Part shown: piece by piece, positions 64 to 63,002 of the stretch
Layout: the number at the start of each line of letters is the position of its first letter
Numbering within the stretch: position 1 is the first letter of the stretch
Notes under the pieces: generated by a model
What the model saw: the letters and a program-made list of their open reading frames with translations, nothing else
Told to the model about the DNA's origin: nothing
Database searches by the model: none
From: an uncultured Agrococcus sp.
Lineage (GTDB): Bacteria > Actinomycetota > Actinomycetes > Actinomycetales > Microbacteriaceae
DNA: 64,000 nt
Direction of reading: 5' to 3'
Assembly: GCF_945915485.1 (NCBI RefSeq)
Contig: NZ_CAMEFJ010000001.1
Coordinates: forward strand, 1 to 64,000
Translations under genes and position numbers: made by a program

Positions 64-133
64 ACACTTCTCGGTCTATACATGGCGACACGCCGGTATA
101 TCGCGTTCACTCCACGCATGAACCGAGAAGTGT
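64..133. repeat. 70-nt palindromic dispersed repeat, copy A
   Basis: ACACTTCTCGGTC...(N44)...AACCGAGAAGTGT; shares ends and the core GGCGACACGCCGGTATA with copies at 61192 and 62287. Confidence 0.9.
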
Positions 134-37493: not shown

Positions 37494-37563
37494 CAACTTC
37501 TCGGTCCCTGGGCGCCGACACGCCGTAAATCAGCCTTCCCGTCGCCAGGCGACCGAGAAGTTG
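37494..37563. repeat. 70-nt palindromic dispersed repeat, copy B (diverged)
   Basis: CAACTTCTCGGTC...CCGACACGCCG...GACCGAGAAGTTG; same length and terminal stem as copies A, C and D; 6 nt from both convergent stop codons. Confidence 0.85.
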
Positions 37564-43898: not shown

Positions 43899-43935
43899 CC
43901 GCAGGTCAGATCGACGAATCGCCAATGGCGATTCG
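43890..43935. terminator. Two back-to-back hairpins at the 3' end of the suf operon
   Basis: TCGATCTGACC-GCA-GGTCAGATCGA (11-bp stem) followed by CGAATCGCCA-A-TGGCGATTCG (10-bp inverted repeat). Confidence 0.65.
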
Positions 43936-43938
43936 GCC

Positions 43939-43982
43939 GAGCGCCGTCGCGAGCCCTAGGCGAGCGAGTTGGGGTTCTCACC
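43939..43982. repeat. Imperfect ~43-nt repeat, unit 1
   Basis: GAGCGCCGTCGCGAGCCCTAGGCGAGCGAGTTGGGGTTCTCACC. Confidence 0.75.
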
Positions 43983-44043
43983 CAAGCTCTTCTCCAGTTC
44001 AAGGCAGGACTCAGGCAAAGCGGTCCACCGGATCGTTCGCCCT

Positions 44044-44130
44044 AAAGCCGTCGCGAGCCCTAGGCGAGCGATTTGGGCTTCTCGCTGAGCGCCGTCGCGA
44101 CCACAAGGGAGCGATCTCGGCTTCTCAGCC
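44044..44130. repeat. Imperfect ~43-nt repeat, units 2 and 3 in tandem
   Basis: AAAGCCGTCGCGAGCCCTAGGCGAGCGATTTGGGCTTCTCGCT then GAGCGCCGTCGCGACCACAAGGGAGCGATCTCGGCTTCTCAGCC. Confidence 0.75.
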
Positions 44131-60459: not shown

Positions 60460-61176
60460 ATGACCGACCTGACACCAAGAACCGTGCTCGTTACCGGCGG
60501 CAACCGCGGCATCGGCCGTGCGATTGCCGAAAGTTTTGCCAAGTCCGGCCATCGCGTCGCGGTCACGGCACGCAGCGGGGAGGGCCCGGAAGGGACCCTG
60601 ACGGTACGTGCCGATGTGACCGACAACGCTTCCGTCGATGCGGCGTTCTCGGAGATCGAGGAGAAGCTCGGCCCGGTCGAAGTCGTCGTGGCCAACGCGG
60701 GCATTACTCGGGACACCCTGCTGATGCGCATGTCGGAGGAGGACTTCTCCGACGTTCTCGAAACGAACCTGACCGGGGCCTTCCGCGTCGTTAAGCGTGC
60801 AAATAAGGGCATGCTGCGTGCGAAGTTCGGCCGTGTCGTCTTGATCTCCTCCGTTGTCGGGCAGATCGGCGGCGCGGGCCAGGTCAATTACGCAGCCTCC
60901 AAGGCCGGGCTGGTTGGCATGGCGCGTTCGATCACGCGGGAACTCGGCGGCCGCGGTATCACCGCGAATGTCGTAGCACCCGGTTTCATCGAAACCGACA
61001 TGACCGCTGCGCTGCCGGAGGAGCAGCAGCAGCAGTATAAGCAGCAGATTCCGGCGGGGCGTTTCGCGTCATCCCAGGAAGTGGCGGACGTTGTCCGCTG
61101 GGTGGCATCCGACGAGGCCGCTTACATCTCGGGAGCGATCATCCCCGTCGATGGTGGCCTCGGTATGGGCCACTGA
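60460..61176 (+). CDS. fabG: 3-oxoacyl-ACP reductase / SDR
   Basis: VLVTGGNRGIGRAIAESFA; NYAASKAGLVGMARSITREL. Confidence 0.93.
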   Translation: MTDLTPRTVLVTGGNRGIGRAIAESFAKSGHRVAVTARSGEGPEGTLTVRADVTDNASVDAAFSEIEEKLGPVEVVVANAGITRDTLLMRMSEEDFSDVLETNLTGAFRVVKRANKGMLRAKFGRVVLISSVVGQIGGAGQVNYAASKAGLVGMARSITRELGGRGITANVVAPGFIETDMTAALPEEQQQQYKQQIPAGRFASSQEVADVVRWVASDEAAYISGAIIPVDGGLGMGH

Positions 61177-61191
61177 CCCCCCTCGACGCGA

Positions 61192-61261
61192 ACACTTCTC
61201 GGTCTATGGATGGCGACACGCCGGTATAGCCCGTTCATTCCATGCATAGACCGAGAAGTGT
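61192..61261. repeat. 70-nt palindromic dispersed repeat, copy C
   Basis: ACACTTCTCGGTCTATGGATGG...CCATGCATAGACCGAGAAGTGT, 21/22 complementary arms; 2 mismatches to copy D. Confidence 0.95.
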
Positions 61262-61312: not shown

Positions 61313-62170
61313 CTATCGCGTGTGATCACCGCGAGCGACAATGCGGCAAATGTCGTCAAGCGCCGCTTCCAGGTGCCGCATCACCTGCCAGTACGTAAGT
61401 CGAACCACTATGTATCCGGCTGCAACCAGGCGTCTGTCCCTCGCACGGTCTTCTTCGAATCTTTGGGCACCGCTGTGGAACTCCTCGCCATCCACTTCCA
61501 CGATTAGTCGCTCTCCGATGAGAAAGTCCACACGATCTCGGCCGATTCGCACCTGCTGTCGGAATCGGATTCTTCGTCGCCTGAACCCCAACTTCGTGAT
61601 GGATTCGGCTCCAGATTCGGATTTGCTGCCACAGCGAGCCAGTGCGCGACTCGCCTTCGTGTCGCCTGAGCCAGCGAGTCTCTCGATGGACGTTCGTCCC
61701 ATGAATCCTAATTGCAATACCGATTCGAAGAGCACAACCAACCAGTCATCGGACTGGCAACGAATCGCGGTGACGAGGGCATCCTCGACGGAGTCGACCG
61801 CATGCTGACATGAGCGAGCATCCCGCTCCGGTGAGGCGCAGATAAGCACGTTGGGCAGGACGTGAGGAACCTGACGTTGTCGATATTCAGTCCGACGAGC
61901 GTGGACGTGATCGCCCTGCCTGTCAAACCAGACCGGCGTCCATACTCCATGATGAGACAGAGCTGACACGCAGCTGACAACCGCCCCGGAGCGGATCGCA
62001 GCTTCAACTCCGGCATGACAGTCAGGCAGCCCGTACCAGCCATATCGAATGCGTTTTATGCGCCCACTTTCCGCCGCCGCTTGTATTGTTCTCGGGCTGT
62101 AGCCCTGTTTGATCAAATGCGAGCGCCGGACCACGCCCCCGTATCTTCTGGGAAACTCTCGAGACAACAT
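61313..62170 (-). CDS. AbiEi-like winged-HTH plus DUF559/Vsr-like endonuclease-domain protein
   Basis: N-term RSHLIKQGYSPRTIQAAAESGRIKRIRYGWYGLP (AbiEi antitoxin-like); C-term SGAESITKLGFRRRRIRFRQQVRIGRDRVDFLIGERLIVEVDGEEFH (PD-(D/E)XK-like). Confidence 0.85.
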   Translation of the reverse strand: MLSREFPRRYGGVVRRSHLIKQGYSPRTIQAAAESGRIKRIRYGWYGLPDCHAGVEAAIRSGAVVSCVSALSHHGVWTPVWFDRQGDHVHARRTEYRQRQVPHVLPNVLICASPERDARSCQHAVDSVEDALVTAIRCQSDDWLVVLFESVLQLGFMGRTSIERLAGSGDTKASRALARCGSKSESGAESITKLGFRRRRIRFRQQVRIGRDRVDFLIGERLIVEVDGEEFHSGAQRFEEDRARDRRLVAAGYIVVRLTYWQVMRHLEAALDDICRIVARGDHTR

Positions 62171-62286: not shown

Positions 62287-62356
62287 ACACTTCTCGGTCT
62301 ATGGATGGCGACACGCCGATATAACCCGTTCATTCCATGCATAGACCGAGAAGTGT
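62287..62356. repeat. 70-nt palindromic dispersed repeat, copy D
   Basis: ACACTTCTCGGTCTATGGATGGCGACACGCCGATATAACCCGTTCATTCCATGCATAGACCGAGAAGTGT. Confidence 0.95.
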
Positions 62357-62363
62357 GCCCCGA

Positions 62364-63002
62364 CTAGGTGAGGTGGGGGAGGAGGTTTCGGAAGTCCGGG
62401 CGATCGATGATCACATCGGCTGCCTCCCGGAGCACCGTCTTGGCGCAGAACGCGACGCCCAGGCCTGCGGCCTCCACCATCAGCAGGTCGTTCGCTCCAT
62501 CGCCGATGGCCATAGTGCGCTCGGGCGGGATGCCCAGATTCGCGCTCAGAGACAGTAGCGTGTCGCGTTTGGCGGCAGCGTCGATGACAGGCCCGACGGA
62601 ACGCCCCGTCAACGCTCCGTTCTCGACCTCGAGCCGGTTCGCGCGCGTTATTCGAATGCCGAGTCGCGCGGCCAACGGATCCAGGATCTCGTGGAATCCT
62701 CCTGAAACCGCAGCAACTGCTCCTCCCGCGCCCTGAACTGCGTCGACGAACTCTTGCACCCCGTCGGTGACGCGCACACGCTCGACGACATCCACCAGCA
62801 CCGACTCGGGAACACCCTGCAGCATCAGCAGTCGCTCGCGCAGGGAGTCGGCAAAATCAAGTTCGCCGCGCATCGCCCGTTCAGTGACCTCCTCGACGTG
62901 GGCCCGAGCATCGGGGCCGACCGAATCCGCGATGAGCTCGATCACCTCGTCACGAATCAGGGTGGAGTCGACGTCCGAGACAACGAGCCATGGTTCAGCC
63001 AT
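62364..63002 (-). CDS. serB: Phosphoserine phosphatase
   Basis: VVSDVDSTLIRDEVIELIA; AVSGGFHEIL; AIGDGANDLLMVEAAGLGVAF. Confidence 0.95.
   Translation of the reverse strand: MAEPWLVVSDVDSTLIRDEVIELIADSVGPDARAHVEEVTERAMRGELDFADSLRERLLMLQGVPESVLVDVVERVRVTDGVQEFVDAVQGAGGAVAAVSGGFHEILDPLAARLGIRITRANRLEVENGALTGRSVGPVIDAAAKRDTLLSLSANLGIPPERTMAIGDGANDLLMVEAAGLGVAFCAKTVLREAADVIIDRPDFRNLLPHLT

Follow-up and report, generated by a model that had tools for sequence, protein, structure and literature searches.

Private palindromes flanking AbiEi-DUF559 nuclease genes point to a REP-like mobile system without a known transposase

The 64,000-nt stretch of Agrococcus DNA analysed here (the window) contains four dispersed palindromes, which raise the question of what they are and by what means they spread. 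An earlier note, made from the window's letters alone, had described them as exactly 70 nt long, and each indeed is (Table 1). Its counts of 2 differences between copies C and D and of 8 between A and C were likewise correct, and copy B, which it had called more diverged, differs from the others at 28 positions. Folded as single-stranded DNA, copies A-D reach z-scores of -5.0 to -7.1 relative to dinucleotide shuffles, with 0 of 200 shuffles folding as well. An Rfam search of the window returned tRNA only, and the palindromes match no known RNA.

Table 1. Palindromes, genes and protein domains of the window
Feature	Position	Strand	Remarks
Palindrome copy A	64..133	+	type 1; covariance model 72.4 bits
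Palindrome copy B	37494..37563	+	type 2; 76.1 bits
Palindrome copy C	61192..61261	+	type 1; 83.0 bits; at the nuclease gene's downstream end
AbiEi-DUF559 nuclease gene	61313..62170	-	ORF, 285 aa; between palindromes C and D
DUF559/MTES_1575 Vsr-fold (EDxHD-like) nuclease domain	61340..61582	-	C-terminal, residues 197-277
AbiEi-like winged-helix region	61937..62149	-	N-terminal, residues 8-78
Palindrome copy D	62287..62356	+	type 1; 82.2 bits; upstream of the nuclease gene
serB-like gene	62364-63002	-	after copy D

A dispersed palindrome family and its anatomy

The host genome (G000) is a draft of 2.81 Mb in 170 contigs and is 86% complete. Searched as an exact pattern of 11-nt ends (ACTTCTCGGTC-N30-60-GACCGAGAAGT), the palindrome family, which we call fam70, occurs at 52 places in this genome and the reversed control pattern at none, a copy number far beyond chance. 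A covariance model, the kind of search that the earlier note had proposed, scored 54 places above 55 bits within 1.09 Mb of the host genome. The exact-end pattern is present 19 times in the congener G003 and has 0 copies in 58 other genomes searched. Near-identical lone copies lie at unlinked loci, where the flanks are unrelated and identity stops at the palindrome; when fam70 copies are paired by highest similarity, no two partners lie close together except those that bracket the two nuclease genes described below. The earlier note's preference for a mobile REP/MITE-like element over a terminator is thus supported by the high copy number, by the restriction of the family to two related genomes out of those searched, by the lack of a U-tract at copies C and D, the differences in occupancy between species and the near-identical unlinked copies. 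An intrinsic terminator was rejected as an explanation, with 0 short GC-rich stems followed by a T-run found around copies C and D.

Fam70 falls into two subfamilies that have in common the ends (AC/CA)ACTT..AAGT(GT/TG), which are 98.6% identical between species, and a one-sided core close to CGACACGCC. Type 1 (19 copies) carries TATGCATGG next to the end and type 2 (35 copies) carries GCTGGGCGA, and just outside the 66-nt unit type 1 has a C-G pair where type 2 has A-T. The compensatory change of the ends from AC..GT to CA..TG, to which the earlier note had drawn attention, is real, but it separates the two subfamilies and does not consist of scattered independent changes. Covariation, which the note had proposed to count, is present in part: 95.3% of alignment cells are paired, compared to 35-41% in slid alignments that served as a control, and 5 pairs show two-sided changes, but 11 of the 18 pairs are invariant. 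Because of these invariant pairs and of the conserved non-Watson-Crick positions in type 2 (T-G and G-A), part of the symmetry may reflect two-fold recognition by a protein, as opposed to a perfect hairpin. Selection on a folded structure, as the note had suggested, accordingly keeps some backing from the fixed ends and the covarying inner stem, but the variation is mostly a split between two subfamilies, and the fixed ends can equally be explained by dimeric-protein recognition or by copying. The palindrome at L213 7117-7195 (G000 C71) combines fam70 ends with an interior of another kind (79 nt) and may represent a third subfamily.

Copies of fam70 lie mostly between genes, and their placement is not even. 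Among 50 classified intergenic copies, 22 are in convergent, 24 in same-direction and 4 in divergent gaps, compared to 87, 200 and 106 such gaps (393 in total) in the same DNA; convergent gaps are thus favoured (22/50 vs 87/393, p 0.0015) and divergent gaps avoided. Copy B, for example, sits between convergent genes at about 8 nt from each. Insertion inside terminator hairpins was considered and rejected, the flanks of fam70 copies not being specifically complementary. These flanks in G000 and G003 (L159-L238 and the window) are strongly and symmetrically skewed in composition (left C 0.43/G 0.22, right C 0.22/G 0.41), and their sequences differ among copies; palindrome-free gaps show no skew (C = G = 0.30), and none is seen for the 77-nt family introduced below.

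Nuclease genes between matching palindromes

The most informative finding, which the earlier note missed, is that a nuclease gene lies between copies C and D and that such a pairing recurs elsewhere with unrelated palindromes. A fabG-like SDR gene ends at 61176 and is followed by copy C. The 285-aa protein encoded between C and D matches PF04480 (3e-11) and AbiEi_3_N (1.7e-4) in Pfam and AbiEi in PADLOC (1.5e-8). Five residues are invariant in 48 homologues (E189, D215, D227, H232 and D241), the first of which lies just before the nuclease domain. The AlphaFold2 model built with these 48 homologues has a pLDDT of 92.1, and among its best Foldseek matches in the PDB are the catalytic domain of the homing endonuclease I-Bth0305I (3r3p; TM 0.83 over the target length) and the AbiEi antitoxin of Streptococcus agalactiae (6y8q); a profile search with the nuclease returned NGO0050 (3hrl) and 3r3p. 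In Pfam, the nuclease gene matches DUF559, MTES_1575 and AbiEi only, with no DDE, HUH or serine/tyrosine recombinase domain, and Y1/HUH transposases (PF01797) have no match in the 86% complete G000, a search that does find matches in 5 of 14 control genomes. No AbiEii nucleotidyltransferase toxin gene is adjacent, the neighbouring ORFs being fabG-like and serB-like as judged from their translations. An origin from plasmids or phages was rejected, since there are only distant homologues and, in plasmids, no copy of the repeat.

The closest relative of this nuclease in the genome, 64-65% identical to it, is encoded at C14:38044-38886 and is flanked by two mutually identical palindromes of the other fam70 subfamily. 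Two sister nucleases thus each lie between copies of their own subfamily, and the flanking copies differ from one another by 0 (C14) and 2 (C and D) nucleotides. The direct repeat at the C14 locus runs about 23 nt past the palindrome, an extension that simple palindrome-limited copying does not predict and that counts against the explanation we prefer. A third homologue (C44) lies between copies of an unrelated 77-nt palindrome and a fourth (C82) between copies of an unrelated 86-nt palindrome, both of which are themselves dispersed. In a blind census of repeated palindromes in 1.09 Mb, five dispersed families were recovered, three of them with an AbiEi-DUF559 gene.

Further repeats are present. 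A 45-nt near-perfect palindrome family, GCGAAAAACTTCGAAACATGACGGTCATGTTTCGAAGTTTTTCGC, has at least 5 copies (sites at L188 14678, L200 4544, L209 18606, L215 6750, L219 7417 and L236 3758), for which no nuclease partner was found, and a small palindrome family, GTGCCGAATGTATGG..CCATACATTCGGCAC, has 3 copies (L203 94, L209 14628 and L236 5530). The window also holds a 48-nt direct repeat (43932-43979 and 44036-44083; 88%) whose copies are 104 nt apart.

Turnover of sites and recurrence across actinobacteria

Comparison with other Agrococcus genomes shows how occupancy of these sites changes. The gap between fabG and serB holds palindrome, gene and palindrome in G000, one palindrome and no gene in the sister species G003, and neither palindrome nor gene in G013, a congener that at one of its loci matches Agrococcus casei LMG 22410 with 100% identity across 3816 nt. 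Within 44 inner nucleotides, C and D each differ from the G003 copy at 5-7 positions, and the DNA flanking the palindromes is 11-19% diverged between the two genomes. This pattern speaks more for a gene that arrived recently at a long-established palindrome; loss of the gene via recombination between the direct repeats could also produce it. At the C14 locus, palindrome and gene are both missing from G003.

The surroundings of 15 G003 palindromes can be aligned with G000, which has a palindrome at the corresponding place in 14 cases. Most of these pairs show no greater resemblance than copies drawn at random from the subfamily; 5 of the 14 are inverted, in one the subfamily differs, and in only two is it clear that the copy is the same. 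At several shared sites, the alignment of the flanks reaches the palindrome itself on one side or both. Comparisons of filled and empty sites showed no short target-site duplication, as far as their diverged flanks allow one to judge. A search of the 78% complete G003 assembly found no close fam70 nuclease, yet the palindromes are kept there. Two sites differ in other ways: at L182 9257-10140 (G000 C4), about 870 nt beside a palindrome in G000 are absent from G003, a stretch without a match in the nuclease (DUF559) searches, and at L205 9005-9275 (G000 C40), G000 has a hairpin, GGTTTTTATGGGTC..GACCCATAAAAACC, where G003 has a fam70 palindrome.

The pairing of nuclease gene and palindrome extends well beyond this genome. 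At 106 AbiEi-DUF559 loci (from the best 80 matches in GTDB genomes and 30 in the genus), the DNA to the left of the gene was compared with that to its right, and a flanking repeat was counted at a score of at least 20; mispaired flanks and shifted segments served as controls. A repeat common to both sides is present at 56 of the 106 loci, compared to 0 of 106 mispaired flanks and 0 of 73 shifted segments (Fisher 1e-21 for real versus mispaired flanks, a value that is only indicative because the loci are related to each other). The other 50 of the 106 loci have no detectable flanking repeat, which speaks against the explanation that we favour. The repeats are mostly 60-90 nt long, form hairpins and occur in more than ten genera, among them Microbacterium, Leucobacter, Agrococcus, Gulosibacter, Protaetiibacter, Schumannella, Herbiconiux, Brachybacterium, Mobiluncus and Jongsikchunia. 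Those of Microbacterium oleivorans and Jongsikchunia recur elsewhere in their own genomes, 3 more times in the former and at least 6 more in the latter, and have none or weak partial matches only in the other genomes searched.

Across non-syntenic loci, similarity between palindromes rises with similarity between nucleases (Mantel r 0.49, 0 of 2000 permutations). The Leucobacter-type loci L065 and L104 have different flanks and become similar from the left palindrome's outer edge onwards. In other Agrococcus species, the palindromes beside relatives of the C44 nuclease keep the inner plan CTGAGCG..GGATAATCC..CGCTCAG, and their outer ends differ yet stay self-complementary; within Agrococcus alone the link to clade is not significant (7/18 vs 0/7, p 0.13). 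In some Microbacterium loci (L056 2662-2845, L070/L079 2568-4201 and L081) the nuclease gene lies within small tandem arrays of palindromes, the number of which varies between close strains. We considered L070/L079 as a bounded mobile block and rejected this, since the two are syntenic with differing palindrome numbers.

A proposed mechanism, its rivals and its nearest relatives

Private palindrome families, their linkage to nuclease genes, the matching of subfamily to nuclease, the presence or absence of the gene and the exchange of occupants all emerge from comparison of the genomes. On balance we consider it probable that palindromes and AbiEi-DUF559 nuclease belong together in a single selfish REP-like mobile system, with the Vsr-type nuclease in the role that a transposase would otherwise have. 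The autonomous unit would be a nuclease gene with a 60-90-nt palindrome on either side, both in direct orientation, and the lone palindromes between genes would serve as non-autonomous units and landing sites. We infer that the nuclease binds, cuts, copies and homes into the palindrome: the AbiEi-like winged-helix part, probably dimeric, would recognise the palindrome through its two-fold symmetry, and cutting, of a duplex, cruciform or hairpin form, would fall to the Vsr/EDxHD domain. Repair of the break from another copy would replace the inner sequence in either orientation and leave the ends uniform, and occasional repair from a gene-bearing copy would generate the palindrome-gene-palindrome arrangement. 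I-Bth0305I, a relative in fold, binds its long target of nearly 60 bp as a dimer (PMC3943268), with which a two-fold symmetric site of 66-90 nt is in keeping. A point against this account is that the nuclease gene, in contrast to classical homing genes, lies between two intact copies of its presumed target, so that self-cutting must be controlled.

Other accounts of the same observations can be weighed against this one. The palindromes could be REP/MITE-like units moved by another enzyme, with the AbiEi-DUF559 gene a passenger that landed in or became trapped between them. The 50 nuclease loci without a flanking repeat, the persistence of palindromes in G003 without a close nuclease and the two small palindrome families for which no such gene was found are what this reading would lead one to see; we nevertheless regard it as unlikely, because each nuclease has its own palindrome family with correlated similarities, the two subfamilies match two sister nucleases, the genome yielded no Y1 transposase, and only pairs bracketing nuclease genes are close neighbours among the most similar fam70 copies.

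Two further alternatives give the palindromes a cellular role, and both appear improbable to us. They might be selected regulatory or structural sites (bidirectional terminators, operators or nucleoid-protein sites) that the nuclease gene exploits for insertion, in keeping with the bias towards convergent and away from divergent gaps, the near-uniform ends and the covarying inner stem. Against such a role stand the lack of a terminator pattern at C and D, the absence of fam70 from nearly all congeners and from the G013 fabG-serB gap, the exchange or inversion of occupants between sister species and the different palindromes in other genomes. AbiEi antitoxins are DNA-binding autoregulators, and the N-terminal similarity of the nuclease to them would suit a defence or toxin-antitoxin-like gene whose flanking palindromes are operator and terminator and whose dispersed copies form a regulon or self-recognition (decoy) sites. 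Vsr-type REases do occur in defence proteins (PMC3710099). However, the copy after the stop codon is nearly identical to the upstream one, copies lie mostly at 3' ends and in convergent gaps and not at promoters, and the neighbouring ORFs do not encode an AbiEii toxin.

With the palindromes and nuclease taken as one selfish system, the data point to REP-like selfish DNA of a sort not described before, which would move without any known transposase. In the open-access literature, no paper treats DUF559 and AbiEi together, none of those found links DUF559 to palindromes, and a description of this system was not found. How REPs without a RAYT spread was left open by Di Nocera and colleagues (PMC3733652). 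If our reading is right, it supplies a concrete enzyme type for at least one such group, gives REP-like palindromes a second type of enzyme partner besides Y1/HUH RAYTs, and assigns a role to a common protein family that has so far lacked one, DUF559 joined to an AbiEi-like part, usually annotated as antitoxin or endonuclease. The many nuclease-palindrome pairs, each with its own recognition sequence, would also be a natural series for the DNA-recognition rules of long-target homing-type nucleases. That the enzyme is unrelated to RAYTs makes a class of its own a serious possibility, and we see the case as evenly balanced for one in which an AbiEi-DUF559 nuclease homes into a private multi-copy palindrome and drives exchange among its copies, the target being also the mobile unit, with co-evolving specificities, a wide spread in actinobacteria and possibly the role of enzyme for transposase-less REPs.

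The closest comparison is with REPIN-RAYT systems, in which REP doublets are associated with tyrosine Y1/HUH transposases (PMC3116915, PMC3733652). Common to both are dispersed intergenic palindromes in tens of copies, enriched at gene ends, and an enzyme gene flanked by its own palindrome family in a family-specific manner, with lone copies outnumbering that gene. Here, by contrast, the enzyme is an AbiEi-DUF559 Vsr-fold nuclease in a genome where no Y1/HUH transposase was found, the units are 66-90 nt without a GTAG/CGTC tag at the stem foot, and the gene is flanked by direct, near-identical copies. REPs with a CGTC tag, reported without a dedicated transposase (PMC3733652), are similarly dispersed palindromes without a known HUH partner but are shorter (8-9 bp stems) and tagged; in a small sample of seven plasmid records, three DUF559 matches had no adjacent CGTC repeat of the searched form.

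EDxHD homing endonucleases (I-Bth0305I, 3r3p) resemble the present enzyme in the Vsr/EDxHD fold with conserved acidic and His residues and in a gene that is present or absent at its cognate site (here fabG-serB, G000 vs G003). They differ in that the gene here is intergenic between two intact copies, with no intron and the site undisrupted, that the presumed targets are multi-copy intergenic palindromes and not one conserved gene, and that the DNA-binding part is AbiEi-like and not of NUMOD type. With the AbiE type IV toxin-antitoxin system (AbiEi, 6y8q) the protein shares its N-terminal region, but it has a fused nuclease domain, private dispersed palindromes and no AbiEii alongside. MITEs and insertion sequences likewise combine short dispersed non-autonomous copies with an enzyme-bearing version; the system here differs in having no DDE, HUH or serine/tyrosine recombinase domain and in that its whole unit is one palindrome.
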